In this document: in pieces, positions 32,346 through 45,969 of the stretch
Layout: every line of letters starts with the position of its first letter
How positions within the stretch are numbered: position 1 is the first letter of the stretch
Assembly (NCBI GenBank): GCA_002919235.1
Contig: PKEX01000017.1
Span: 1 to 64,000 of the forward strand
Length of the DNA stretch: 64,000 nt
Direction of reading: 5' to 3'
DNA from: Clostridia bacterium
GTDB taxonomy: Bacteria > Bacillota > Limnochordia > DTU080 > RSA5
Position numbers and translations under genes: made by a program
The notes under the pieces: model-generated
Told to the model about the DNA's origin: nothing
What the model saw: the letters and a program-made list of their open reading frames with translations, nothing else
The model's database searches: none

Positions 32346-32384
32346 GCGGCACTCGCCGCGGCCTTGCGACGGGAGGCATGGGCG

Positions 32385-32975
32385 TTGACGGAGACAGAGG
32401 TCCTGGAGATCTTTCGGGAGTCCGGAGCCCTGCTGGAGGGGCATTTCCTCCTCACCTCGGGGTTGCACAGCGACCGCTACTTCGAGAAGTTCGCGGTCCT
32501 GCAGCATCCGGAGCGGACCGAGCGGCTCTGCCGGGCGCTGGCGGAGCGCTTCCGCGACGACGGGGTCCAGCTGGTAGTGGGCCCGGCCGTCGGGGGGATC
32601 CTGCTGGCGCACGAAGTGGCCAAGCACCTGGGCACACGGGCGGTGTTCACGGAGCGGGAGGGCGGCCGCATGTGCCTCCGCCGGGGCTTTGCCATTGCGC
32701 CGGGCCAGCGGGTGCTGGTGGTGGAGGACGTGGTGACCACCGGCGGCTCCGTGCGGGAGGTGCTGGACGTGGTGCGGGAGGCGGGGGGCGAGCCGGTGGG
32801 GGTGGCGCTGCTGGTGGACCGCAGCGGCGGCGCGGTGGACTTCGGCGTGCGCACGGAAGCCCTCCTCCGGCTGGACGTGAAGGCGTATCGCCCCGAGGAG
32901 TGCCCTCAGTGCCGGGCTGGCGTGCCGCTGGCGGCCCGCGGGAGCCGTCACCTATCCGGCGGCCCGACGCCGTAG
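32385..32975 (+). CDS. pyrE: Orotate phosphoribosyltransferase
   Basis: PyrE joins orotate and PRPP to form OMP. The 196-residue protein has TSGLHSDRYFEKFAVLQHP, VVGPAVGGILLAHEVA and the PRPP loop VLVVEDVVTTGGSVREVLD. A Cys pair (CPQC) near the C-terminus is seen in the PyrE-like branch in several Bacillota. I prefer the TTG at 32385, 8 bases after GGGAGG; an in-frame TTG at 32364 has no good site. It ends the pyr operon, at a hairpin shared with the convergent cluster. Confidence 0.92.
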   Translation: MTETEVLEIFRESGALLEGHFLLTSGLHSDRYFEKFAVLQHPERTERLCRALAERFRDDGVQLVVGPAVGGILLAHEVAKHLGTRAVFTEREGGRMCLRRGFAIAPGQRVLVVEDVVTTGGSVREVLDVVREAGGEPVGVALLVDRSGGAVDFGVRTEALLRLDVKAYRPEECPQCRAGVPLAARGSRHLSGGPTP

Positions 32976-33026
32976 CGCCCGGGCTCCGGCCGGGTTTCAG
33001 CCGCCGGCGGCCGGAGCCCGGGGCGC
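32975..33026. terminator. Strong hairpin between pyrE and the ligase cluster
   Basis: A 17-bp GC stem (32975-32991 with 33009-33026, one bulged G) joins the 3' ends of the two convergent operons. The loop contains the stop codon of the minus-strand gene and the right arm lies inside its coding sequence. No clear T run. Confidence 0.6.
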
Positions 33027-34355
33027 GAAGCCGCTGCAGGAGAAGCAGTAGTTGAGCAGGCGGCGCCGGGCCACGCGGCGGATAGAGGGTTCGTCAAAGA
33101 CCGCAGGCTTGGAGTTGAGTTCAAAGATCCACGGGTGGCCGGCGGCGTCGAGGCCTACGTCCATGGAGAGCTCGCCGTGGCGGTCGCCGGTCGCCCGGTC
33201 GAACACTTCCGCCGCCCGGACGATCACCCGGTGCAGCTCCTGGGTGATGTGCCGGGCTTTTGCCTCGTCGCGGAAAATGGAGCGGATGAGGGGAGAGAGC
33301 CGGGCCCGGCTGCCGCCCCGGGGCCGGTGGGTCGTGATCTGCCCGCGCCCCGCGATGCGGGCGGCCATCCCCGTCACCAGCCAGCGGCCGTGGGCGTCTT
33401 TCTGCACCAGCGCCCGGATGTCGAAGGGCCGGCCGCCCGTCTTGAGCAGGGGTACCGCCTTCTGCATCAGGTACCGGCGGCCGCGGCGCAGGCGGGCCAG
33501 CGCCGCGCGCAGCTGGGCTTCCTTCCGCAGGGTGCGGTGGACCATATGCCCTCCCGGCCGGGTGGCGTGCCAGCCAAATCCGCCTCCCTTGAGCAGCTCC
33601 ACCCGGACGGTTCCCTTGCCCAGGCTCCCGTCGGCCATTTTCAGATACACGCGGCCGTGCTCCCGCAGAAAGCTGAGGAGCGAAGCGGCGCCGGTGCACG
33701 GCGTCGTGGCGGGAAGGTACGCCCGCAGCGTTTCGTCTTTGCTCAGGATCTGGTAGACGCTCCACTTGTCGAGGAACTCCGGGTTGAAGAGGTCGAGCCC
33801 CGGCTCCGCCAAGAGCCGCAGGCGGGCCTCGCGGACGCTCTTTCGCCTCTCCGCCTTGCGCGTCGGCACGCGGTTGTAGACCACGTCCGGAAAGGGGAAC
33901 GCGCCCCGGACCCACCGGTGTCCCTTTCCCGCGGGAAGGTACGTGTAGCCCCGGATGATCTTGCTTTGCCAGTGGATGCCCTTGGGCGTGAAGACGTAGG
34001 CGATGGCGCCCATCTCCCGGGCCAGGGCGATGAAGCGGCGAAAGCGCGCGGTGAGGCCGGCGAAGGGCCGGCGGGACCCCCTGCGGCACGACGAGGTGAA
34101 GATGCCGATGACGGGACCGATGCGCACGACGCCGTCTCTCACGTCGACGTGCAGGCGCCACGAGCCGGGGATGGAGAGGCGGCCCAGCATGGGGCGGGCG
34201 GAGAGGTCTCCGGGCCGCTGCCCTTCGCCCGTCACCGCCAGCGGGTGCAGGCCCAGGCGTACCTCATCTCCCCGCTTCAGCGCTTCGCAGGCGTCGGCGC
34301 CGGCTCTCAGTCGGATGCGGTGGCCCCGCGTGCCACGGACGAGCGTCGCCTCCAT
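32997..34355 (-). CDS. YheC/YheD-family ATP-grasp protein (cluster gene 10, last)
   Basis: The 452-residue protein has an N-terminal beta-rich region (1-80) and a YheC/YheD-type middle (IGIFTSS, YVFTPKGIHWQS, PFPDVVYNRVPTR, LFNPEFLDKWSVYQIL). An ATP-grasp domain follows with VYLKMADGSLGKG, YLMQKAVPLL and FDIRALVQKD. The metal-binding end is GELSMDVGLD and IFELNSKP. All expected ATP and Mg residues seem present, so it is probably an active carboxylate-amine ligase. Substrate unknown; Bacillus YheC/YheD are spore coat-associated. I prefer the ATG at 34355 behind GGAGGG. A Cys-Ser-Cys near the end is unique to this copy. It is separated from the preceding gene by 88 bases. Confidence 0.85.
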   Translation of the reverse strand: MEATLVRGTRGHRIRLRAGADACEALKRGDEVRLGLHPLAVTGEGQRPGDLSARPMLGRLSIPGSWRLHVDVRDGVVRIGPVIGIFTSSCRRGSRRPFAGLTARFRRFIALAREMGAIAYVFTPKGIHWQSKIIRGYTYLPAGKGHRWVRGAFPFPDVVYNRVPTRKAERRKSVREARLRLLAEPGLDLFNPEFLDKWSVYQILSKDETLRAYLPATTPCTGAASLLSFLREHGRVYLKMADGSLGKGTVRVELLKGGGFGWHATRPGGHMVHRTLRKEAQLRAALARLRRGRRYLMQKAVPLLKTGGRPFDIRALVQKDAHGRWLVTGMAARIAGRGQITTHRPRGGSRARLSPLIRSIFRDEAKARHITQELHRVIVRAAEVFDRATGDRHGELSMDVGLDAAGHPWIFELNSKPAVFDEPSIRRVARRRLLNYCFSCSGFAPRAPAAGG

Positions 34356-34443
34356 GCTGGATCCCTCCATGATTCTCGAATCGCGTCTCAGGGCCCGCCG
34401 CAGGCCCCGGAGACGAGCGGCGCGGACGAGGAGCCCTCGCACG

Positions 34444-35793
34444 TCAAAAACCCGCCAAGTACCGGGCGTACGCCATGGGCCGGCGGAACGAGAGGAAGAC
34501 CCGCCGCTTGGGCCCGGCGTCGAACACCTTGCGGAAGGGCTTCGCGTTCACCTCGATGAGCCAGACCCGCCCGCGGCGGTCCACCCCCAGGTCGAGGCCG
34601 ATCTCGCCCAGGGGGCTGTCGAACACTTCGTCCAAGGCTTCCACGATGGTCTTGGCCGCCTGGTTGATGCTGGCCCGGACCCGGCGGCGAGCCTTGCCGA
34701 AGCGGGAGCGCAGCACCCAGCCGAGGCCCATGGCGGTGCCTCCCCGGCTCAGGTTGGAGGTGAGCCGTCCCTTCGGTGCGACGCGGACGTAGATCTTGGT
34801 CCGCTTCCACGTCCCGCTCCCGTCCTTTTGCATCAGGATCCGCACGTCAAAGGGGGAGCCCCCTACGGTGGCGAGGCGAAGGTCGGGCTGCATGATGTAG
34901 CGCTTTCGCCGCTGGATGCGGGCGATGCCCTGGTAGAGCGTTTCGAACCGGCGGGTCTTGTGCTGCCGAGTTCCCCTCCGCCACTCGTACCAAGCACCGA
35001 GCCGCCGCACCCGGATGATCCCCTTCCCCTGGCTCCCTTCGGTGGGCTTGAGAAACGTCGCGCCGTGCTCTTCCAGGAAGGCCTTGAGGCTTTGGGGCCC
35101 CGTGAGCTGCCGGGTGTCCGGCAGGTAGCGGGCGAGGGCTTGGTGGCCGGACATCTTCTGGTACAGCGCCCACTTGTCGAAAAAGCCCTCGTTGAAATAC
35201 TTCACCGAGGGGAGCGAGCGGAGAAACTGCTTGGCCCGCTGGGCGCTGGGACGGCGTTCCCAGCTCCGAGACTGGATGCGGTCGTAGACGACGTCCGGCA
35301 CGGGGTAGCGGACGACGGCCCAGCGCCTGCCGGAAAGGACGAACCCTTCGACCCAGTCCCGCCCTGGCTGCACCCCGTCGGGCGTGAGGACCATGGCCAG
35401 CAGGTTGAGCCGCCGGGCGTGGCGCATCAGCTGGCGGATGTCGAGGTTGCGCGCGCCGAAGAGCCGGGGTGAGCGGGGGCCGGCTTTCCGCCGCTTGACG
35501 GCGAAAATGGCGACCACCGGTCCGATCCTGAGCCTGCCGTGCTCCCGGTCGAAGCGCATCCAGAGGGTCTTGGGGAGCGGCAGGAGGAGCTCTTTCGCGA
35601 GGCTGCGGCTCAAGGCGACCCGGGCGGAGCTTTCGGAAGGCAGGACCCGCACCGGGCGCGACCGGCTGCCGACCGAGAGCGGACCGGCGAAACCCTCCGG
35701 AAGTCCCATGGCGGCTATGAGCTTTTTCGGGATCGCCAGGGCGTCCTCGGGGAGGTCGCCCGCGACCAGCTGCACTTTGACGCTCTCGTCCAT
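34444..35793 (-). CDS. YheC/YheD-family ATP-grasp protein (cluster gene 9)
   Basis: The 449-residue protein has the same architecture as its downstream neighbour: an N-terminal beta region (KVQLVAGDLPEDALAIPKKL), the YheC/YheD signature PVPDVVYDRIQSRSWERRP, FNEGFFDKWALYQKM, and an ATP-grasp domain with TFLKPTEGSQGKGIIRV, YIMQPDLRL, FDVRILMQKD, GEIGLDLGVD and LIEVNAKPF. Key nucleotide and metal residues are present. It is Arg/Lys-rich and very likely basic. The ligation partners are unknown. It follows the amidoligase gene by 47 bases in the same direction. Confidence 0.85.
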   Translation of the reverse strand: MDESVKVQLVAGDLPEDALAIPKKLIAAMGLPEGFAGPLSVGSRSRPVRVLPSESSARVALSRSLAKELLLPLPKTLWMRFDREHGRLRIGPVVAIFAVKRRKAGPRSPRLFGARNLDIRQLMRHARRLNLLAMVLTPDGVQPGRDWVEGFVLSGRRWAVVRYPVPDVVYDRIQSRSWERRPSAQRAKQFLRSLPSVKYFNEGFFDKWALYQKMSGHQALARYLPDTRQLTGPQSLKAFLEEHGATFLKPTEGSQGKGIIRVRRLGAWYEWRRGTRQHKTRRFETLYQGIARIQRRKRYIMQPDLRLATVGGSPFDVRILMQKDGSGTWKRTKIYVRVAPKGRLTSNLSRGGTAMGLGWVLRSRFGKARRRVRASINQAAKTIVEALDEVFDSPLGEIGLDLGVDRRGRVWLIEVNAKPFRKVFDAGPKRRVFLSFRRPMAYARYLAGF

Positions 35794-35840
35794 CGGCCTC
35801 TTCCCTTCCGTGCGCGATTGGGGGCGTCCGGGCCGGCGGG

Positions 35841-37250
35841 CTAGCGGCGTCCGGCCTTCTTTTTCCTGGGCGCCGGCCGGATGAGGCCCCAGCGGACCCG
35901 GATGTCCCGCGACTCGTGCCAGCGCTTGTTGGCCCGGACGGATTCGGGAATGATCGCCAGCTCCCGGGCGTACTTGGCGTAGTCGTCCAGGGCTTCAAGG
36001 TCCGCCCACAACAGCTCGAAGATCTCGCGGCCTCCCTCTTTCTCGGCCTGGTAGAACAGGCGGCAGGTCTCGGGCGACGAGTAGACGTTGCGGGTGAGCT
36101 TTTCGTAATTGTCGACCACCAGCTTGGTGAGGCAGAGGACGGCCGCCGCGTACTGCGGGCCCACGATCCAGCTGGCGGGCGTCCGGTATTCGAACCCGCC
36201 GTAGCTCTCCCAGCGAAACTCTCCCAGCCAGCCGTATTTCTTGCGGCGCTTTTTCGCCTTCACCGGATTTTCCAGCATCATGACCGGGAAGGCCACGTAG
36301 TTGTCGAGCGCCCGCAGAAGCTCCGTGGTCAGCTCCACGCCGCTCAGGTGGATGTGCCCGCCGATGGGATACCCCGGCACCGGCAGGCTCCCCGCCTCCC
36401 AGCGCACGCCCTTCTTTGGTGTGCGGGCTTGGGCCCGAAGCAGCAGCCGCCGGATCCGCTCCACCAGTTCCAGCGGGTCTTTGGTGGGCCTCGGGCGCAG
36501 TTCGACGATGGGATGCGCTCCCCGCCGGCGCCTTGACCCCTGCTGGTCGTAGCCGACGCTGCCGTACCGGCTGAAGTAGCGGGAGGCGTAGAGGATCCCG
36601 CCGGTTTTCTTTCGCATGATGAACTCCAGGTCGGCGCCGAGCGTCACGTCGGACCGCTGGTACCAGCGTTTTTGCCGGCGCTTCACGTACGCCACGATGG
36701 CCTTGGCGTAAAGAGGCCCCGTGGTCTTGGTCAACGCCGGACTGGGGTCGACGTCGATGGGGACGAACTTTTTCTTCGAAAGCTTGCCCACGTCGACGCA
36801 GGCGAAGTGAAGCCCCAGCACGTACGCGGCCCGCACCGCCATCTCCCGGGCCCTCTGCAGCTGCTTGGTGGTGAGGGCCGTCACCCGGCGGTACTTGCCC
36901 CGGGACTTGCGGAAGAACGCCACCGTCCTCAGGTCGAAGACGTGGATGCGGTAGCGGGCCCGCACCCGGGGGATGCGGGAGTGCGCCGGCTTGTAGTAGC
37001 GGGTGCTGATGCCGTGCGCCTTGAAGGTGTCCACGACGTAGGCCGGGTCCTTGATCCGCTCCAAAGCCTCCACCGGGTTGAGCACCAGGTGGCGGCCGTC
37101 GTCGGCGCCGTCCGAGTTGCCCCATCGTATGACGGCGTCCCATGAATTGGGAATGTACTGGGTGTCGAAGATGGGTTCGGCGACCGCTTCCTTTGAGAAC
37201 TTCAAGCGTCGTACGTCGCTGGCCGCGCGGTACATCGTCAAGAGCTTCAC
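35841..37250 (-). CDS. Putative amidoligase (COOH-NH2 ligase type 2) fused to reduced ATP-grasp-like region (cluster gene 8)
   Basis: The 469-residue protein has two parts. Residues 1-195 resemble a shortened ATP-grasp fold: RIHVFDLRTVAFFR, then AAYVLGLHFACVDVG and VPIDVDPSP, as at the end of RimK-type domains, with the usual ATP-binding Lys region missing. Residues 200-460 match putative amidoligases of the glutamate-cysteine ligase fold: TLGADLEFIM, GGHIHLSG, YGWLGEFRWESYGGFEYRTP. Such enzymes form amide bonds between a carboxylate and an amine. The substrate is unknown. The start is GTG at 37250 or ATG at 37235. A second copy lies two genes upstream. Confidence 0.8.
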   Translation of the reverse strand: MKLLTMYRAASDVRRLKFSKEAVAEPIFDTQYIPNSWDAVIRWGNSDGADDGRHLVLNPVEALERIKDPAYVVDTFKAHGISTRYYKPAHSRIPRVRARYRIHVFDLRTVAFFRKSRGKYRRVTALTTKQLQRAREMAVRAAYVLGLHFACVDVGKLSKKKFVPIDVDPSPALTKTTGPLYAKAIVAYVKRRQKRWYQRSDVTLGADLEFIMRKKTGGILYASRYFSRYGSVGYDQQGSRRRRGAHPIVELRPRPTKDPLELVERIRRLLLRAQARTPKKGVRWEAGSLPVPGYPIGGHIHLSGVELTTELLRALDNYVAFPVMMLENPVKAKKRRKKYGWLGEFRWESYGGFEYRTPASWIVGPQYAAAVLCLTKLVVDNYEKLTRNVYSSPETCRLFYQAEKEGGREIFELLWADLEALDDYAKYARELAIIPESVRANKRWHESRDIRVRWGLIRPAPRKKKAGRR

Positions 37251-37312
37251 GCCGGACCCCCCGCCTCGCGCAGTTCGTCGAAAAGCTCAGTGGGGAACGA
37301 GGTGCTCCGACG

Positions 37313-37468
37313 CTACTTGCCGGTGGTCAGGATGAGCACGATGATGAGTCCCGCGAGGATGATGACATCGAAGGGATTAGGTGTGACGAGCACCTTGAGG
37401 AGCAGGACGGAGATCAGGGTGACGATGACGACGAATACAGCGTCGGAAAAGCCTCGAAAACGTCTCAC
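37313..37468 (-). CDS. 51-residue two-helix membrane peptide (cluster gene 7)
   Basis: A short frame in the gap between two cluster genes encodes 51 residues starting MRRFRGFSDAVFVV, with a GTG start 8 bases after GGAGGG (complement of 37478-37483). It has two hydrophobic stretches, AVFVVIVTLISVLLLKVLV and FDVIILAGLIIVLILTT, joined by a short TPNP turn, and a positive N-terminus. This suggests a small hairpin membrane protein with both ends inside. I do not recognise a family. It might anchor the ligases to the membrane. A weak promoter candidate, TACTAT (complement of 37497-37502), lies just upstream. Confidence 0.65.
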   Translation of the reverse strand: MRRFRGFSDAVFVVIVTLISVLLLKVLVTPNPFDVIILAGLIIVLILTTGK

Positions 37469-37551
37469 GGCGGCCACCCTCCCTCGTAGCTACGGTATAG
37501 TACACACCATCCCCCGGCGGAGGAATAGGAACGGGCTCCCATCCACGGGCG

Positions 37552-38712
37552 TCAGCGCCCCGCCGCGGCCTCAAGGGGGACGGGGGCGCGGGAGCTTTCG
37601 CCGGAGGGAGCGGGAGGGTGAAGCGCGAGGCCGCCTTGCGCCAGGAACCGGGCGAACTCCACCACCCGGATGCGGGAACGGCGCCAGGCTTTCCGGAGGC
37701 GAGCCCGGGCGAAGAGCGCGCGGCCGGGCTGCCGGTTCACCTCGAGAATCCAGGCGCGCCCTTCCGGGCCGAGGCCGATGTCGACGCCCAGCTCTCCCAG
37801 GGACGGATGGGCGCGGCTCAGCGCTTCTGCGGCCAGGAGCGCCACCTCCGCCACCTGCCGGCGGATGCGGGCTAGGGAGCCCTTGATCCGGGCGGCCCGC
37901 ACCAGGCGGGAGAGCCCCATGGCCCGGCCCCCGGCGTGCAGGTTGGAGACCAGCCGGCCTCGCCTTCCGGCCCGCACCCCCACGGCGCTCACCTGCCACT
38001 GCCCTCGGGAGTCCCTTTGCACGATGACCCGGACGTCCACGGTGCCGCCGGCCAGTCTCACGAGGTCGAGGCCCTGCTGCACGAGGAAGGCGTCGCCGGC
38101 GCGGCCCCGGCGGCACGCCGCCACCACCGCCTCGGCGCTGGGAAGCGTCTGGGACCGGCGGGGCGCCGAGGCCCGCGTCCAGTGCCAGCCCCGCTTCAGC
38201 TTCCGGCAGACGCTGATTCCCTTGCCCTGGCGGCCGCGGGCGGGTTTGACGTAGACGTACCGGTGCCGGGCGGCCAGCGCCAGCAGGTTCTCGGCCGTGA
38301 GGGGCAGCGTCTCGGGAAGGTGGGGCGCCAGCGCCTCGGTGCCGTGCAAGGTGCGGTACACGTCCAGCTTGTCGCCGAAATCCGGGTTGAAGCAAGGGAT
38401 GCCGTGCTCCTCGAACCGCTTCAGCTCTTCCGCGAAGCGGCGGCGGCCCAGCGGGCCTAGCCCCCACACCCGGTCGTAGACCACGTCGGGCAAGGGATGC
38501 CACCGCCGCCGCCAGCCGCCGGGCACGGGGGACCAGCCCCGCACCCGCTGCCGGGGCCAGTCGACGTCGCCCGGGCCGAAGACGTAGGCGTTCATCCCCT
38601 TCCTGCGGGCGATCGCGACGAGCCCCCTGAGGTACGAAGTCTGTTCGCCGAACCGCCGGCGGCGAAAGGTGCGGGCCGCGATGCCCAGCGTCGGGCGCGC
38701 GCTCTTGGCCAC
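37552..38712 (-). CDS. YheC/YheD-family ATP-grasp protein (cluster gene 6)
   Basis: The 386-residue protein lacks the N-terminal beta region of cluster genes 9 and 10 and starts directly with TLGIAARTFRRRRFGEQT. YheC/YheD signatures follow: AYVFGPGDVDWPRQ, PLPDVVYDRVWG, CFNPDFGDKLDVYRTL. The ATP-grasp part has VYVKPARGRQGKGISV, AFLVQQGLDLV, VDVRVIVQRD, GELGVDIGLG and ILEVNRQPG. Catalytic residues appear complete. The last 25 residues form a Pro/Ala-rich tail. It is 31 bases downstream of an amidoligase gene, repeating the amidoligase-YheC/YheD pairing seen at cluster genes 8 and 9. Confidence 0.85.
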   Translation of the reverse strand: MAKSARPTLGIAARTFRRRRFGEQTSYLRGLVAIARRKGMNAYVFGPGDVDWPRQRVRGWSPVPGGWRRRWHPLPDVVYDRVWGLGPLGRRRFAEELKRFEEHGIPCFNPDFGDKLDVYRTLHGTEALAPHLPETLPLTAENLLALAARHRYVYVKPARGRQGKGISVCRKLKRGWHWTRASAPRRSQTLPSAEAVVAACRRGRAGDAFLVQQGLDLVRLAGGTVDVRVIVQRDSRGQWQVSAVGVRAGRRGRLVSNLHAGGRAMGLSRLVRAARIKGSLARIRRQVAEVALLAAEALSRAHPSLGELGVDIGLGPEGRAWILEVNRQPGRALFARARLRKAWRRSRIRVVEFARFLAQGGLALHPPAPSGESSRAPVPLEAAAGR

Positions 38713-38743
38713 GCGGGTCCACCTCCTCAGCCAATGCCCGGGT

Positions 38744-40141
38744 TTACTTCCACCACGCGGACTTGAAGTCGTCGTCGTCGTTCCACTCCTGCTCGCCGGT
38801 GACCATCCGCTTCACGTACGAGAGCTCGTAGGCGTAGGCTTCCGCGGTGGGCGTGGCCAGCAGGCGCCGCCACCGCTGGTGGAACGCCAGGCGGAAGCGG
38901 GTCTTCTTGCCGAGGTAGAACTCCCGTACGGCGCGAGCCGGGCGCAGCGGGGCGGGATCGAGGCGCGGCCACTCGGAGGCCACGGTCTTGACGAGGCACA
39001 AGGCGGCCCGGGTGGCCGCCGGGCTCACCAGCCAGCTGGGAAGGGTCCGGTATTCGAAGCCGCCGTGCTCCTTCCGCCGGAATTCGCCGAGCCGCCCGTA
39101 GCGGCGGCGGCGCAGCTTGGCCCGGGTGCGCTTCTCCAGCAGCATGAAGGGGATCGCGACGTAGGTATCGAGGGCGAGGAGCAGGGGAGTGGTGAGCGGG
39201 ACCCCGCTCAGGTGGACGTGGCCCCCGGTGGGGACCCGCGAGAGAGGAAAGCTCCCCGCCATCCAGCGGGTGCGGGCCGCGGGCAGCGCCTCTCTGGCTC
39301 TCAGGAGCGCCTGGGCCACCCGTTCGGCCAGCACCAGCGGCGACGGGCTCGGCGCCGGCCGCAGCTCGGCCAAAGGATAGACAGTCCCTCGCCTCTCCCA
39401 GCTCTGCCGGTCGTGGCCCACCTCACCCCGGAAGGGGAGGTAGCGGGAGGCGTAGAGAATCCGCCCGTCCTGGGTGGCCAGGGAAAACTCGGGATCTGCC
39501 CCCAGCACCAGCTCCCCGGTAGGTCGTGGGCCGCCCAAGGAGAGGGCGGCCAGGCGGGCGATGGCCTCCCCGTACGCGAGGCCCAGCTCCTCGTCGACCT
39601 CGGGATGGGGATCGACCCGCTCTACGTGCCAGGAGCCCGACGGGTGTACGTTCACGTGGACGCAGCCGAAGTGAAGGCCCAGCACGTAGACGCTGCGGCA
39701 CGCCGCCTCCAGCACCCTCTGGTACCGCCAGCGGGACAGGCGGCCGGCCACCCGGCCGCCGCAGTCGTCCTCGACCTTGAGCACGGCCAAGTCCGCGACG
39801 TGGACGCGCATGGAGGCGAACTCGGATGCGACAAACCGCTGCACCGGCCGGGCGATCCCCGGCGGCGCCAGATCCCAGGAGACGGGGATGCCGTGCCACG
39901 CGAGGTGAAGGGCCGCTTCGGCGGGGGAGAGACTGCGCAGGACGGCCTCAGGCGGGTTGATCTCCAGTGGCGCTCTCGGGGCCGGGGCTCCGGGCTCCCC
40001 CCACGAGACCGCCAAATCCCAGGCACCCCGGGCGGCGCGGCTTTTGCAGTCGACCGCGTACCCGTACTTCTCGAGCTGGGACATGACGGCGTCAAGCCCT
40101 TTGGACCAGCGGGTTCCCGGCGTCAGGACCAGCGCTTTCAC
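38744..40141 (-). CDS. Putative amidoligase fused to reduced ATP-grasp-like region (cluster gene 5)
   Basis: The 465-residue protein is a paralogue of cluster gene 8. The N-terminal 200 residues end in YVLGLHFGCVHVNVHPSG and HVERVDPHPE, like a shortened ATP-grasp domain. The C-terminal region has VLGADPEFSLATQDG, GGHVHLSG and YGRLGEFRRKEHGGFEYRTLP, typical of the COOH-NH2 ligase type 2 family. The two copies differ widely outside these motifs, so they probably act on different substrates or sites. I prefer the GTG at 40141 behind GAGGG; the coding start overlaps the end of the RimK-type gene by 50 bases, suggesting coupled translation. Confidence 0.8.
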   Translation of the reverse strand: MKALVLTPGTRWSKGLDAVMSQLEKYGYAVDCKSRAARGAWDLAVSWGEPGAPAPRAPLEINPPEAVLRSLSPAEAALHLAWHGIPVSWDLAPPGIARPVQRFVASEFASMRVHVADLAVLKVEDDCGGRVAGRLSRWRYQRVLEAACRSVYVLGLHFGCVHVNVHPSGSWHVERVDPHPEVDEELGLAYGEAIARLAALSLGGPRPTGELVLGADPEFSLATQDGRILYASRYLPFRGEVGHDRQSWERRGTVYPLAELRPAPSPSPLVLAERVAQALLRAREALPAARTRWMAGSFPLSRVPTGGHVHLSGVPLTTPLLLALDTYVAIPFMLLEKRTRAKLRRRRYGRLGEFRRKEHGGFEYRTLPSWLVSPAATRAALCLVKTVASEWPRLDPAPLRPARAVREFYLGKKTRFRLAFHQRWRRLLATPTAEAYAYELSYVKRMVTGEQEWNDDDDFKSAWWK

Positions 40142-41012
40142 GGAAGCCACCCTCTTTCGTCACACGGGCTAGAGCCGCTCGGATCAGGTGTGACGCCACG
40201 TCCACTCCCGTCGCCAGGGCAAAGCCCCGAAAGCCCGGGCACACGTTGACTTCCAAGACCACCAGCCCGCCGGAGACCCGCACGAGATCGACTCCGGCGA
40301 AGTCCGCCCCCACGGCGGCGGCGGCGCGGACTGCGATCCGTTCGGCCTCGGCGTCCAAAGGGGCGGGGACCGCTTCGCCGCCCAGCGCCAGGTTGGCTCG
40401 CCACTCGTCCCGGCGGGGGCGCTTGCGCACCGCTCCCAGCGAAAGCCCGTCGAGCACCAGCACCCGCAGCTCCTCCTGGATCCCGCGGCAGTAGGCTTGC
40501 AGGTACAGCGGTTCGGCGCCGGCGGCGGCCAGCCGCAGCAGCTCCTGCCGGCGGGCCACCCGCTGGACCCCGTCGCCGCCCGCGCCTTGGGGGGGTTTCG
40601 CCACCAGAGGATAGGGGAGCTTGCGCGAGAGCCGCACGGCGGCAGCGGGCGCCACGAGCCAGGTGGGAGGGTGAGGCACTCCCGCCCGGGCCAGCGCCCG
40701 GCTCATCAAACGCTTGTCGCGGCCCGTGCGGAAGGCCGGGGCACCGTTGATCACGGGCAGCCGCCCGGCGATGCACTCCAACAGGCGTACGCCGTCGTCG
40801 AGACAGCCGGCGTCGACGCGGCCGATGGCGATATCGAGAGAAAGGGGGGCGCCGTCCGGGTCCAGGAGGCATCCCTGGACCAGGTCGACGCTGGCTCTTT
40901 TCGGATCGACCCGCACCAGCTCGGCGCCGAGGGCGCGAGCCGCCCGGTGCAGCGCCTTCATCTCCCAGGTGTGCCCGGCGTCGCGGGTCACCACGCCGAT
41001 CCGGGGTTTCAT
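40092..41012 (-). CDS. RimK-type ATP-grasp ligase (cluster gene 4)
   Basis: The 306-residue protein resembles RimK/LysX, ATP-dependent enzymes that add amino acids to carboxyl ends. It has INGAPAFRTGRDKRLMSRAL, PYPLVAKPPQGAGGDGVQRV, LYLQAYCRGIQEELRVLVLD, VRKRPRRDEWRANLALGG, FAGVDLVRVSGGLVVLEVN and CPGFRGFALATG. All nucleotide and Mg residues expected from the family seem present. RimK enzymes add glutamate and LysX relatives add amino acids to carrier proteins; which applies here is unknown. The ATG overlaps the stop of the upstream glycosyltransferase gene (ATGA). Confidence 0.85.
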   Translation of the reverse strand: MKPRIGVVTRDAGHTWEMKALHRAARALGAELVRVDPKRASVDLVQGCLLDPDGAPLSLDIAIGRVDAGCLDDGVRLLECIAGRLPVINGAPAFRTGRDKRLMSRALARAGVPHPPTWLVAPAAAVRLSRKLPYPLVAKPPQGAGGDGVQRVARRQELLRLAAAGAEPLYLQAYCRGIQEELRVLVLDGLSLGAVRKRPRRDEWRANLALGGEAVPAPLDAEAERIAVRAAAAVGADFAGVDLVRVSGGLVVLEVNVCPGFRGFALATGVDVASHLIRAALARVTKEGGFRESAGPDAGNPLVQRA

Positions 41013-42016
41013 CCGACCGCCGCCCTCTCCGCCAGCGCGTCCGCGTAGACGGACACCACCTCGCGCGCCATCCGTTTGAGGGAGAAGTGGCGGACGGCGT
41101 ACTCCCGGCTCCAGCGGGCCAAGGCCCGCCGGTGCCGCTCGTCCTGGACGAGCCGGACCAGATCCCGCCGGATGCTCTGGCGGTCGGGCGGATCGCCGTC
41201 GGAGGCGGGGAACCAGAGCGCGCCTCCCCGGCCGCGGGAGAGGGCGGCGGGGCTGACCACGCCCCCGTACGCCGAGCCCAGCAGCAGGCCGACGCAGCCG
41301 GAGGCCATCCCCTCCCGGATGGCCCGGCCGGCCCCGGCCACCACGTGGCTTTCGGCCAGGAGCGGGGCGACGTCCCAGAGCCATCCCGCCGCGACGCACC
41401 GGGGATGCGACGGGCGCTGGTTGGACGCCACCACCAAGCGGACCCGGGGGATCATGGCTACCGCCTCGATGAGTTCGTCGAGCCCGCGGCGCTTGGTCTC
41501 GTCCACCCTGCCCACGAAGGCCACCTGGAGCGTGCGCCCCTTTTTCCCCGGCCGGAACCGGTCCGTGTCCACCCCGTTGCCCACCAGGGCCAGCCGCTGG
41601 ACGCCTCCGGCGCAAAGCTCTTGATGCACCCGGGGACCGACGGCGATGACGCGATCGGCCTTCTTGACCAGCGGTTGGCGCAGCGTGCCGAGGCCGTGGG
41701 CCGTGAAAATGACGGGAGCGCCCGTCTCCGCCGCGACCTGTGCGGCCAGGGGCAGCAGGTCGGACGAGTGAACGTGGAGGATCTGGGGATCCAGCTGGAC
41801 GGCGGCCGCGAGGGCCTCCCCGGGGCGGGCGTGCCGGTGGCACGCGACGCCCTCTCGTTCCAGCGTCCGGCAGGCGTGGGTCCAGGCGGCCAAGTGGCAC
41901 GGACCGTGGGAAAGGAGCGCGACGGTGTGGCCCTGGCGGGCCAGCTCTCGCGCGAGCTCGACGGTGTGGGTGGTCTGGCCGCTGTAAAAGAGCCGGGCGA
42001 GCAGCACGACGCGCAC
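41009..42016 (-). CDS. Family 4 glycosyltransferase (cluster gene 3)
   Basis: The 335-residue GT-B protein probably transfers a sugar from a nucleotide-activated donor. Its N-terminal domain begins RVVLLARLFYSGQTTHTVEL, with HVHSSDLLPLAA and the ADRVIAVGPRVHQEL segment. The C-terminal domain has NGVDTDRFRPGKKGRTLQVA, FVGRVDETKRRGLDELI and the donor-binding REGMASGCVGLLLGSAYGG. The GTG at 42016 is 8 bases after AAAGGAG. It is the only glycosyltransferase in the cluster and is translationally coupled to the RimK-type ligase, so the product may carry sugar as well as amino acids. Donor and acceptor are unknown. Confidence 0.82.
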   Translation of the reverse strand: MRVVLLARLFYSGQTTHTVELARELARQGHTVALLSHGPCHLAAWTHACRTLEREGVACHRHARPGEALAAAVQLDPQILHVHSSDLLPLAAQVAAETGAPVIFTAHGLGTLRQPLVKKADRVIAVGPRVHQELCAGGVQRLALVGNGVDTDRFRPGKKGRTLQVAFVGRVDETKRRGLDELIEAVAMIPRVRLVVASNQRPSHPRCVAAGWLWDVAPLLAESHVVAGAGRAIREGMASGCVGLLLGSAYGGVVSPAALSRGRGGALWFPASDGDPPDRQSIRRDLVRLVQDERHRRALARWSREYAVRHFSLKRMAREVVSVYADALAERAAVG

Positions 42017-42065
42017 GGCGTCATCTCCTTTCGCACCGCCAGCGCAAGGTGAGAGTGATCCCATC

Positions 42066-43190
42066 CTATTGCGGCGAGACCAGGTCCGTTCCGGAGGGCT
42101 GCGGAAGGACGCCGGCGGCGGCTCTCGCCCGGGCGTACAAGAAGAGCCTTTCGGCGGCCAGACGGCGGATAGCAGGCTCATCGAAGGGAAACGGCTTGGC
42201 GTTCACCTCGAGAATGGCGGGAGTGCCGTCTTCCCGAACCGCCATGTCCAGCGAGAGTTCAAAAAAGCCGTCTCCAAACGCCTGCTCCACGGCCCGTGCC
42301 GCGTCGACGGCCGCGCGTTCCAGGACGTCCAGCCCGGGCAGGGCGCCGCCGGCCTCCTCCGCAAGGCGCCCGTAAGGGACGGCTTGGCCGCCCCGCACGG
42401 TGTGGGTCGTCACGCCGCCGGGAGCGGCGACACGGCCGGCCGCTCCGGTGAGGCGCCATGCCCCGCCCGGGTCCTTTTGCACCAGGGCGCGGATGTCGGC
42501 AGGCCGGCCGTGGACCCGCAGGGCGCCCACGGCTTCCTGGACCAGGACCGGCTCGTCCCGGTACAGATTTTGGAACAAGGCGTTGAGCTGGGAGCGGGAG
42601 ACCCGGGCGCGCACGAGGGGGGAAGAGAAGCCCCTGCGGGGGTTGTGGACGATCCGGTAGTGCCGGCCGGCTCGCTCCGCTCGCAAGATCCCACGGCCCA
42701 GGGACCCGTTCACCGGCTTGACGTACGCCGCGCCGAACTGGTCGACGGCGCGCGCGATGGCCCCAGCGCCCGCGGCGACGGCTGCCGCGGGAAGGAACCG
42801 GGACGCGGGGGAAGCGGCCAGGGCGGCCTGCACTTCCGCCTTGTTCAGGAACCGGGGGTTAAACAGCGGGACCCGGCGGGAAAGCCGCCAAAGAGCCCGG
42901 CGGCCGGGAACAGACGCCTCGACCCGCCGCCGGGAGATCCGGTTGTAGACGGCGTCGGGCAGCGGCAGCCGCTGTTTCGTCCATTTTCCCCGGCCGGCCC
43001 GGACCCATCCGTCCACCGCCGCCTTGCGCCAGTCGACCGCGGCGATGTGAAACAGTGCCACGCGAATGCCGAAACGTTCCGCGGCGCCGGCCAGATGGGC
43101 GTAGCCGTGTTCCGGCCAGCGGGAAGCGGGCGCCGTCAGCGGCCAGTCGACGGCGATTCCCAGCAGGAGGGCGGTCTTTGGGGAACCCAC
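42066..43190 (-). CDS. YheC/YheD-family ATP-grasp protein (cluster gene 2)
   Basis: The 374-residue protein has no N-terminal beta region. It shows LLLGIAVDWPLTAPASRWPE, PLPDAVYNRISRRRVE, LFNPRFLNKAEVQAAL, and the ATP-grasp motifs AYVKPVNGSLGRGILRAER, VLVQEAVGAL, ADIRALVQKD, FELSLDMAVRED and ILEVNAKPFPFDEPAIRRLA. Its end resembles that of cluster gene 10, which shares DEPxIRR. Active-site residues appear intact. It lies 22 bases downstream of gene 1 and 49 bases upstream of the glycosyltransferase start. Confidence 0.85.
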   Translation of the reverse strand: MGSPKTALLLGIAVDWPLTAPASRWPEHGYAHLAGAAERFGIRVALFHIAAVDWRKAAVDGWVRAGRGKWTKQRLPLPDAVYNRISRRRVEASVPGRRALWRLSRRVPLFNPRFLNKAEVQAALAASPASRFLPAAAVAAGAGAIARAVDQFGAAYVKPVNGSLGRGILRAERAGRHYRIVHNPRRGFSSPLVRARVSRSQLNALFQNLYRDEPVLVQEAVGALRVHGRPADIRALVQKDPGGAWRLTGAAGRVAAPGGVTTHTVRGGQAVPYGRLAEEAGGALPGLDVLERAAVDAARAVEQAFGDGFFELSLDMAVREDGTPAILEVNAKPFPFDEPAIRRLAAERLFLYARARAAAGVLPQPSGTDLVSPQ

Positions 43191-43212
43191 GGGCGTTCAC
43201 CTCTTCGCCAGG

Positions 43213-44322
43213 CTATGCGCCGCCCTGGACGCCGTGCCGGCCTCTTCCGGCCAGGAAGCGGGCGTAAGCCGCCGGACCCTGGTCCGCCTTGCGGGCCTCC
43301 TCTTTCATCCCGGCGCGGTGAAACGAGATGCGGCCGGTGCGGGAGTTCACTTCGATGAGCCAGCAGCGGTACTCTTTGTCGACGGCGACGTCGACGCCCA
43401 GCTCCCCTACGTGCTGCGAGGAGCGGGCCACGGCGTTCGCGGCGGCGAGGGCCAGCTCTTCGACGCGCGCCCGCACCCCCTCGATCACGTCCGGGCCGGC
43501 GCCGCTCTCTTCCAGGACGGTCTCGAGGGGCAGCGCCTTTCCCCCGGCGTGGATGTTGGTCACCTTCCTGCTGGGAGCGCCGAGGCGGGCGACCATCCCG
43601 GTGAGCGCCCACTCTCCGTCCTCCCTGCGCTGCACCAGCGCCCGCACGTCGAACACCCGCCGGCGGTAGGTGAGGACGGGAATGGCCTGCTGCACCAGCA
43701 TCGCACGGCCCCGGTAGGCGCAGCGGGCCGCCAGCGCCGCCACCGTGGCCACCCGGCCGCGGCGGGTGCGCCCGCCCGCGCTCTTGCAGTAGAGGTAGCC
43801 GCCGGGCACCTTCCGGGCCCAGGAGACGCCCTTTCCCTGCCCGCCGCTGGCCGGCTTGATGTACACTTCGCCGTAGCGGCGGAGCATCGCGTCCAAGCTG
43901 GCCCGGGTGAGGAGGCGGGTGTGGGGGAGGGCGGGCGCCAGCACCGGGTCTTTCATAAAGACCTTGTGCAGCCGCCACTTGGAGCCGATGCGGGTGTTGA
44001 ACCGGGGGATGCGGCGCCGGGCGAAGCGGGCCCTGGCCCGCACCACGGCCCGGAAGTCCGCGATCATCCGGGGCGAGACCCGGTCGTAGACGGCGTGAGG
44101 GAAGGGGTAGACCGCCGAGACCCAGCGCCGCCCCGTCCACGTCCAGCCCCTGATCCGCCGCTTCTTCCACGAGATCCCCGACGGCGAAAAGATGTAGACT
44201 TTGACCCCGATGTTCTTTCCTTCAGTGATGAGCCGGCGGAAGAAGGTCGTCTGCTCGTGATAGGGTCGGCTCGACGCCTTGCGCTTTCCCACCAGCACTC
44301 CCAGGTAGACGTCCTCGGCCAC
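43213..44322 (-). CDS. YheC/YheD-family ATP-grasp protein (cluster gene 1, first)
   Basis: The 369-residue protein opens the cluster. Signatures are YLGVLVGKRKASSRPYHEQT, VYIFSPSGISWKKRRIRGW, PFPHAVYDRVSPRM, FNTRIGSKWRLHKVF, then ATP-grasp motifs VYIKPASGGQGKGVSWARK, AMLVQQAIPVL, FDVRALVQRRED, GELGVDVAVDKEYRC and LIEVNSRTG. I prefer the GTG at 44322, shortly after GGGGGAGCGGAG. It is divergent from purB. On the minus strand upstream TAGGAT could be a -10 box but no convincing -35 or sporulation-type box is visible, so I do not call a promoter. Confidence 0.85.
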   Translation of the reverse strand: MAEDVYLGVLVGKRKASSRPYHEQTTFFRRLITEGKNIGVKVYIFSPSGISWKKRRIRGWTWTGRRWVSAVYPFPHAVYDRVSPRMIADFRAVVRARARFARRRIPRFNTRIGSKWRLHKVFMKDPVLAPALPHTRLLTRASLDAMLRRYGEVYIKPASGGQGKGVSWARKVPGGYLYCKSAGGRTRRGRVATVAALAARCAYRGRAMLVQQAIPVLTYRRRVFDVRALVQRREDGEWALTGMVARLGAPSRKVTNIHAGGKALPLETVLEESGAGPDVIEGVRARVEELALAAANAVARSSQHVGELGVDVAVDKEYRCWLIEVNSRTGRISFHRAGMKEEARKADQGPAAYARFLAGRGRHGVQGGA

Positions 44323-44516: not shown

Positions 44517-44560
44517 AATCCCGAACGTTTTCTCGTCTAGCTGCGGTTATGTTTGGATTA
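44517..44560 (+). promoter_or_regulatory. Pair of inverted PurR-type boxes before purB
   Basis: The direct box at 44517-44529 matches AWWWCCGAACWWT at 11 of 13 positions; the inverted box at 44548-44560 matches at 10. They are 18 bases apart, exactly as in front of the purine permease. The pair lies in the transcribed leader, 18 bases after the -10 box, so a bound repressor would block elongation or open-complex escape rather than -35 recognition. Confidence 0.68.
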
Positions 44561-44565
44561 AGGAG

Positions 44566-45969
44566 ATGGAGCTTCGGGTGCACCGGGATATCTTTGACGC
44601 CATCAGCCCGCTGGACCATCGGTATTGCGCTTCTTCGCCCGAGCTTTGGGAGCGGCTCTCCGCCTACCTGAGCGAGGCGGCGGCCATCCGCTACCAGGCC
44701 CGGGTGGAGGCGGCGCTGGTCTCGGCCCTGGCTCGCCGCGGGCTCTGTTCACGGCGGGCGGCGGAGGAAGTGGAGCGAGCGGCCCTCGAGGTGACCCCGG
44801 AGGAGGTGTACCGGGAGGAGCAGAGGACCCGGCACCACGTGCGGGCGCTGGTCAACTGCATCCGGGCCCGGGTCTCCGACGAGGCGAAGCCTTTCGTCCA
44901 CCTCACGGCCACCTCCATGGACATCACCGACACCGCCCGCGCCCTGCAGCTGCGGGACGCGGCCCGCGAAGTGCTCATCCCGCTCCTCAAGGAGCTGGAG
45001 CGGGCATTGATCGCCGTGGCTCGCCGGGAGGCGGAGACGCTCCAGGCCGGCAGGACCCATGGCCAGCACGCCGTCCCCATCACCTTCGGCTTCGCGATGG
45101 CCGAGTACGTCAGCCGGCTGGGCCAGCGCATCGAAGGGCTGGAGCGGGCGGCGGCCGCCTTGAAGGGGAAGATGGCCGGGGCGGTGGGGGCGTACAACGC
45201 CTCCCGGCTGTTTTTCGACGACCCGGCCGCCTTCGAGCGAGAGGTGCTGGAGTCCCTAGGCCTTTCCGCCGCCGACCACGCCACCCAGATCGTGCAGCCG
45301 GAGTTTCTCCTCGATTACATGCATGCCGTCGCCTCAACCTTCGGCGTGCTGGCCAACCTGGCCGACGACATCCGGCACCTGCAGCGGACCGAGATCGGCG
45401 AGGTGGGTGAGGCCTTCGAAGCCGATCAAGTGGGTTCGTCCACCATGCCGCACAAGCGCAATCCCTGGAACTTCGAACACGTCAAGAGCCTCTGGAAAGT
45501 GTTCGTCCCCCGCATGATCACCCTCTACATGGATCAGATCTCCGAGCACCAGCGAGACCTCACCAACTCCGCCTCCGGGCGCTTCGCCGTCGAGATGGCG
45601 GCGGGCCTTGCCGCCGCGGCGGACCGGCTGGTCCGGGTCGTGCGCAAGCTGGTGGTGGACCGGCGGCGGATGCTGGAGAACTTCGAGTCCACGGCGAAGA
45701 GCGTCATCGCGGAGCCTTTGTACATCCTCCTTGCGGCGGCCGGCCATCCCGACGCACACGAGGCGGTGCGCCGCCTCACCTTGAGGGCGGAGGCGGGAGA
45801 AGGGAACGTATGGGACCTGGCCTTGGCCAGCCAGGAGCTGGCGCCGTACCTCGCCCGGCTGTCGGAGGATCAGCGGCGGGTCCTCGAAGATCCCCGGCGC
45901 TACACCGGCATCGCCGCGGAGAGGGCGCGCCGGGTGTGCGACGAGTGGGAGCGCAGGTTGGGACTTTGA
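44566..45969 (+). CDS. purB: Adenylosuccinate lyase
   Basis: PurB cleaves SAICAR to AICAR and adenylosuccinate to AMP. The 467-residue protein has DAISPLDHRYCASSPELW, HLTATSMDITDTARALQLRD, the TLQAGRTHGQHAVPITFGFA box and the mobile signature loop VGSSTMPHKRNPWNFEHVKS. The length is normal. The ATG at 44566 directly abuts AAGGAG; the GTG at 44578 would have better spacing and cannot be excluded. It is the first gene of the pur operon; purE, purK, purC, purS and purQ, often found around it, are absent here. Confidence 0.94.
   Translation: MELRVHRDIFDAISPLDHRYCASSPELWERLSAYLSEAAAIRYQARVEAALVSALARRGLCSRRAAEEVERAALEVTPEEVYREEQRTRHHVRALVNCIRARVSDEAKPFVHLTATSMDITDTARALQLRDAAREVLIPLLKELERALIAVARREAETLQAGRTHGQHAVPITFGFAMAEYVSRLGQRIEGLERAAAALKGKMAGAVGAYNASRLFFDDPAAFEREVLESLGLSAADHATQIVQPEFLLDYMHAVASTFGVLANLADDIRHLQRTEIGEVGEAFEADQVGSSTMPHKRNPWNFEHVKSLWKVFVPRMITLYMDQISEHQRDLTNSASGRFAVEMAAGLAAAADRLVRVVRKLVVDRRRMLENFESTAKSVIAEPLYILLAAAGHPDAHEAVRRLTLRAEAGEGNVWDLALASQELAPYLARLSEDQRRVLEDPRRYTGIAAERARRVCDEWERRLGL

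Follow-up and report, generated by a model that had tools for sequence, protein, structure and literature searches.

A CotE-less, enlarged operon of YheC/D and COOH-NH2 ligases in a Clostridia bacterium with a likely role in the spore coat

Positions 32997-44322 of a 64,000-nt stretch of a Clostridia bacterium genome (GenBank assembly GCA_002919235.1, contig PKEX01000017.1; hereafter the window) hold ten co-directional minus-strand genes, among them five YheC/D-type ATP-grasp ligases (PF14398) and two COOH-NH2 ligases (PF14395; hereafter amidoligases). Eight of the ten are predicted to make amide bonds. We propose, with a probability of roughly 60%, that this operon is one lineage's expanded, CotE-less form of a widespread spore-coat ligase module that acts on carboxylates of the coat. 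A spore-coat role for the operon is likely. The first-pass annotation of this DNA had hinted at such a role, and the hint is strengthened by the linkage to cotE in relatives, the presence of SpoIVA in the genome and mother-cell-like promoter patterns upstream of related operons.

Amidoligases co-occur and cluster with YheC/D and CotE

We assessed co-occurrence in 300 genomes of the phylum, taken as a fixed sample. Of these, 37 encode PF14395, and all 37 are also among the 89 genomes that encode YheC/D (Fisher 5e-23). CotE (PF10628), which organises the outer coat of the spore, was found in 40 genomes, four of these under the family cut-off, and accompanies PF14395 in 23 (Fisher 1.5e-14, uncorrected for ancestry). 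In all of these 23 genomes no more than about 8 kb separates CotE from the amidoligase; the corresponding neighbour gene, which encodes 180-240 amino acids (aa) and initially formed an anonymous cluster, was identified as CotE by Pfam (E 1e-25 to 1e-75). SpoIVA, encoded by 250 of the 300 genomes, occurs in 36 of the 37 with PF14395, the exception being a 61%-complete genome. CotE was also found well outside the Bacilli (L117, L125, L159 and L162; families f9, f27, f33, f55 and f70), and a 2012 survey recorded none in clostridia (PMC3533761).

Related loci, which were recovered by an alignment-based scan of contigs and not by a scan with a single window protein, display several recurring layouts. 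The order cotE-amidoligase-mutS is found in Paenibacillus, Ammoniphilus, Chengkuizengella and Thermoactinomycetaceae; in Paenibacillus one amidoligase stands directly beside cotE, and the genome carries its YheC/D genes at other sites. Tumebacillus, Kyrpidia (Alicyclobacillaceae and others) and several uncultured lineages have cotE-YheCD-YheCD-amidoligase-YheCD-YheCD or near variants. Syntrophomonadaceae lack cotE and carry YheCD-amidoligase together with a convergent secreted AstE/M14-like hydrolase.

Some loci have additional neighbours. Five (L065, L079, L082, L084 and L085) contain a tandem cotE pair, with one nearly tail-less and one acidic-tailed product, followed by four YheC/D genes and an amidoligase, and in the same five a conserved gene of 390-410 aa without a known family diverges from cotE. 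A MurF-like ligase on the opposite strand adjoins the amidoligase or the cluster in L079, L080, L082, L084 and L085. In f33/f70 genomes the operon extends further, to genes for an acetyltransferase and for a protein with a weak likeness to CotS.

What is conserved across these loci is a core of a single amidoligase and one to four YheC/D proteins, in most cases with cotE. The ten-gene unit of the first-pass annotation is apt for the expansion seen in the window's lineage and does not describe the core. Two genomes, G147 and G287, encode single proteins that fuse an amidoligase to YheC/D:

L069:8064-10838 and L096:7777-10500, amidoligase-YheC/D fusions of 924 and 907 aa

Because two genomes fuse their domains, we argue that amidoligase and YheC/D act in one process, which supports the earlier suggestion of several cooperating amide ligases.

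It is quite unlikely that the module instead acts on cortex or germ-cell-wall peptidoglycan, amidating or extending side chains that linked secreted AstE/M14-like enzymes would trim. AstE/AspA-type secreted hydrolases do adjoin the amidoligase in Syntrophomonadaceae and others, one such hydrolase of the window genome bears a peptidoglycan-binding domain and a MurF-like neighbour is present in f27. The linkage to CotE, however, indicates the coat, the window cluster contains no peptidoglycan gene by Pfam and YheD of Bacillus subtilis belongs to the coat, where it depends on SpoIVA (PMC7911427).

The window operon is probably a CotE-less derivative

All ten genes of the first-pass annotation are present in the minus-strand arrangement that it described, and Pfam assigns all of them but the small peptide. 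In order of transcription the operon comprises:

43213..44322, minus: YheC/D-type ATP-grasp ligase 1, the operon's first gene (PF14398, E 5e-65; tree subfamily with copy 3)
42066..43190, minus: YheC/D-type ATP-grasp ligase 2 (PF14398, E 3e-49; tree subfamily with copy 5)
41009..42016, minus: GT4 glycosyltransferase (PF13439, E 1e-19)
40092..41012, minus: RimK-family ATP-grasp ligase (PF08443, E 8e-26; TIGR00768 barely over its cut-off)
38744..40150, minus: amidoligase 2, RimK-like N-terminal half plus COOH-NH2 ligase at 38753-39505 (PF14395, E 5e-79)
37552..38712, minus: YheC/D-type ATP-grasp ligase 3 (PF14398, E 1e-62)
37313..37468, minus: 51-aa hydrophobic two-span membrane peptide
35841..37250, minus: amidoligase 1, RimK-like half (about residues 1-195) plus COOH-NH2 ligase at 35883-36641 (PF14395, E 1e-92)
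35794..35840, no strand: intergenic gap between amidoligase 1 and YheC/D 4, the position of cotE in the syntenic loci L051, L052, L054, L055 and L056; no cotE here
34444..35793, minus: YheC/D-type ATP-grasp ligase 4, with an additional N-terminal domain (PF14398, E 4e-80)
32997..34442, minus: YheC/D-type ATP-grasp ligase 5, the operon's last gene (PF14398, E 4e-68)

Intergenic distances in this order are 22, 49, -4, -59, 31, 83, 62, 47 and 1 bp, in line with the reported gaps of less than 90 bases or overlaps (largest gap 83 bp, two overlaps). The cluster does lie between pyr and pur genes, with a phosphoribosyltransferase (32364-32975) on the pyrimidine side and an adenylosuccinate lyase (44560-45969) on the purine side. 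All five YheC/D proteins score above the PF14398 cut-off (E 3e-49 to 4e-80). The large open reading frames (ORFs) are as expected of real genes, since their GC content at third codon positions (GC3) is mostly 0.83-0.92 in the chosen frame and the genome has 69% GC. The 51-aa peptide was seen in the window alone, with no homologue among the compared loci; in genome G001 of the same family (isolate RSA8; L059/L062) its position coincides with a contig break. A 74-aa ORF upstream of the first gene and minus-strand ORFs at 44691-45759 were rejected as antisense to the adenylosuccinate lyase.

Five related genomes (L051, L052, L054, L055 and L056) have the cluster amidoligase-cotE-YheCD-YheCD, and in L051, L052 and L054 it is flanked by purine and/or pyrimidine genes, as in the window. 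The window genome and G001 carry YheCD-YheCD-GT-RimK-amidoligase 2-YheCD ahead of this core and lack cotE. Because the same enzyme families are clustered in many genomes and G001 has the same layout, the clustering in the window is not a matter of chance. The window thus has PF14395 and YheC/D in one cluster without an adjacent cotE, in a genome that retains SpoIVA (E 2.6e-116), as an endospore-former should. It is a CotE-less derivative of the CotE-linked module, not a full member, and its lineage added three YheC/D genes, the glycosyltransferase, RimK and the second amidoligase.

The amidoligase tree places both window copies in one clade with seven CotE-linked relatives (Shimodaira-Hasegawa-like approximate likelihood ratio test, SH-aLRT, 95), and amidoligase 2 groups with the CotE-linked amidoligase of G003 (SH-aLRT 93). 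Since the window copies sit in this CotE-dominated clade and most deep branches include CotE-linked amidoligases, the simplest reading of the tree is that cotE was lost in the window lineage. We found no acidic-tailed substitute for CotE in the window or around the genome's other two YheC/D copies, and no member of the CotS family in the genome. A plus-strand ORF at 37142-37489 (GC3 0.56), considered as a substitute, was rejected as antisense over the small peptide. Elsewhere in the genome (L063:8580-13131) another YheC/D gene lies 1.8 kb from one for a secreted protein with peptidoglycan-binding and AstE/AspA-type hydrolase domains.

GT4 and RimK occur within the cluster only in the window's family, that is, in the window genome and G001. 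Homologues of the window GT4 exist elsewhere, and in the related genome G031 one lies directly upstream of a YheC/D gene (L200:7968-10237).

Ligase families keep their catalytic motifs

An alignment of 36 YheC/D proteins has invariant Lys, Lys, Gln, D-x-R, Asp and E-x-N positions, which all five window copies retain. DxEF, E-R-P, GGHxH and FEYR motifs are invariant across 43 aligned amidoligases, including the two from the window. The alignments thus confirm that the catalytic and sequence motifs are kept, as had been proposed from the window itself.

The predicted structure of amidoligase 1 (predicted local distance difference test, pLDDT, 93.3) matches RimK, LysX, ArgX and graspetide ligases, as well as glutamine synthetase and YbdK. 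Because of these fold matches and the order of the Pfam domains, we read the model as a RimK-like ATP-grasp N-terminal half joined to a glutamine-synthetase/YbdK-like ligase half, and the earlier label of amidoligase fusions appears right. Across the aligned family, catalytic residues are not conserved in the N-terminal half; this half is therefore probably inactive and may bind rather than catalyse. A sequence search of the PDB with the amidoligase returned nothing significant. For YheC/D 4 (pLDDT 94.3) the nearest folds are graspetide ligases, the ArgX-LysW complex, D-cycloserine synthetase and tubulin tyrosine ligase/TTLL6, and the model thus resembles mostly enzymes that activate protein or peptide carboxylates.

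The tree divides the five YheC/D proteins among three old subfamilies (copy 1 with copy 3, copy 4 by itself, copy 2 with copy 5), with the deepest forks moderately supported. These subfamilies recur together in other genomes, a pattern consistent with distinct steps. It also bears on a possible but doubtful alternative, that the ligases assemble a free product step by step, either a non-ribosomal peptide or an amidated polymer, with one unit added per YheC/D and glycosylation by GT4, for deposition in or around the spore; CotE would then be a scaffold or a co-regulated neighbour. Ancient subfamilies that recur together are what successive steps would produce, a MurF-like ligase is adjacent in some genomes and linked peptide ligases often act successively in peptide biosynthesis (PMC4431377). 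Nevertheless, Pfam reveals no polymerase, flippase or exporter among the ten genes, as a polysaccharide or teichuronopeptide export cluster would be expected to have, the cluster holds no amino-acid supply genes and the lone Paenibacillus amidoligase stands directly beside cotE with YheC/D elsewhere. The possibly glycosylated polymer of the first-pass annotation has no support beyond the single glycosyltransferase gene, given also the confinement of the clustered glycosyltransferase and RimK to one family and the predominance of protein- or peptide-carboxylate enzymes among the fold matches.

Promoter-like motifs upstream of related operons

We scanned the regions upstream of 102 amidoligase operons. 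A preset sigma-K-type pattern precedes 13 of them (0.7 expected) and a preset sigma-E-like score was reached in 12 (2.2 expected); a strict sigma-E pattern is rare (1/102). The mother-cell-sigma-like pattern CAC-N17/18-CATANN[A/T] precedes 53 of the 102, against about 1 in shuffles or at random positions, a count that is an upper bound because the pattern was sharpened on the same operons in which it was counted and the operons are mutually related. Consistent with a coat role, sigma-E and SpoIIID control yheC and yheD in B. subtilis (PMC517825), the one species in which their sporulation expression and coat location are known. There YheD, a protein whose function is not known, first assembles into rings and later encloses the forespore in a shell, in a SpoIVA-dependent manner (PMC7911427; PMC3533761).

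It is unlikely that the cotE linkage is a mere operon convenience, such as a shared sporulation promoter, and that the window cluster has drifted to an unrelated vegetative role, for example in secondary metabolism. The loss of CotE, the gain of the glycosyltransferase, RimK and a second amidoligase, and the lack of a recognisable sporulation promoter upstream of the window operon fit such drift. Yet the genome retains SpoIVA, and the core genes occupy the same site as in CotE-bearing relatives.

A candidate mechanism in the spore coat

In the favoured reading, that of a coat-carboxylate ligase module, sporulating cells would express the core of amidoligase and paralogous YheC/D proteins in the mother-cell compartment. 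At the forespore surface these ligases would form amide bonds, presumably in successive steps, with carboxylates that belong to coat proteins or to a peptide bound to the coat, and thereby alter coat charge or cross-linking. In species with CotE, the strongest candidate substrate is the disordered, acidic C-terminal tail of this protein. The tail has 15 negative charges and prevents the meshwork from assembling, a block that is lifted by Ca2+ or by removal of the tail; the effects that the study reports for it are those of charge and Ca2+ (PMC11980541). Amidating or extending the tail could be a covalent route to the same end. A more specific idea, possible but less likely than not, is that PF14395 and YheC/D attach amino acids through amide links to the acidic tails of CotE and other coat organisers, in the manner of tubulin polyglutamylation, to switch meshwork assembly, with another coat substrate and glycosyl transfer in the window lineage. 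In that lineage a different coat component would have to be the target, and additional modifications would come from RimK and GT4.

Genomes with an amidoligase more often have an acidic CotE tail (p 0.009, uncorrected), a difference that is suggestive only, since Bacillaceae have acidic tails without an amidoligase.

Several observations weigh against the spore-coat module as we propose it. CotE was not found in the window genome, which is 99.45% complete, nor in G001 or three further genomes of the order. Altogether 14 of the 37 amidoligase genomes are without CotE, so CotE cannot be the sole substrate. The step at the CotE tail is weakened by these genomes, the window's included, and by the acidic tails without an amidoligase in Bacillaceae and one incomplete genome. 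The strict promoter motif was not found upstream of the GC-rich window operon itself, and the motif's sharpening on its own test set counts here as well. Fold matches among ATP-grasp enzymes do not separate substrates, and D-Ala-D-Ala ligase and glutathione synthetase also score. To our knowledge, no enzyme activity is known for either PF14395 or YheC/D.

Comparison with known systems

Bacillus subtilis YheC and YheD belong to the same ATP-grasp family (PF14398) in a sporulating host, which fits a coat role. B. subtilis, however, has no PF14395 partner (none in a control search), whereas the window holds five YheC/D paralogues and two amidoligases in one operon. The window amidoligases share the full-length ligase domain of phiEco32-like COOH-NH2 ligase type 2 (PF14395), but they are host-encoded, fused to a RimK-like half and, in relatives, linked to cotE and YheC/D, and the match to the phage protein is weak.

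Tubulin tyrosine ligase, the TTLL polyglutamylases and RimK, which glutamylates ribosomal protein S6, add amino acids to carboxylates of protein tails. They offer an analogy backed by fold matches, yet their families differ from the window ligases and the likeness is known here from predicted folds. Graspetide ligases, which form side-chain lactams or lactones on ribosomally synthesised and post-translationally modified peptides, are the nearest solved folds to YheC/D. Unlike graspetide clusters, the window cluster has several different ligases in one operon and no precursor peptide with a Ser/Thr and Asp/Glu core; its sole small peptide is hydrophobic, two-span and free of Glu.

The amidoligase survey of Iyer et al. 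2009 reportedly covered the same families and raised the idea of linked ligases and peptidases (cited in PMC4431377). Among the open-access papers searched, we found no spore paper with both CotE and ATP-grasp, and a search by title and abstract gave nothing on an amidoligase in the spore coat. The families and the linked-ligase idea are thus known already, and what is potentially new is the biochemical role.

For two decades YheC/D proteins have been listed as coat proteins without known function, and the present results connect them with CotE and with another family of ligases. The presence of a defined module in culturable Paenibacillus, Tumebacillus and Thermoactinomyces relatives turns this into a question of enzymology, namely whether carboxylates of coat proteins are covalently amidated or extended.

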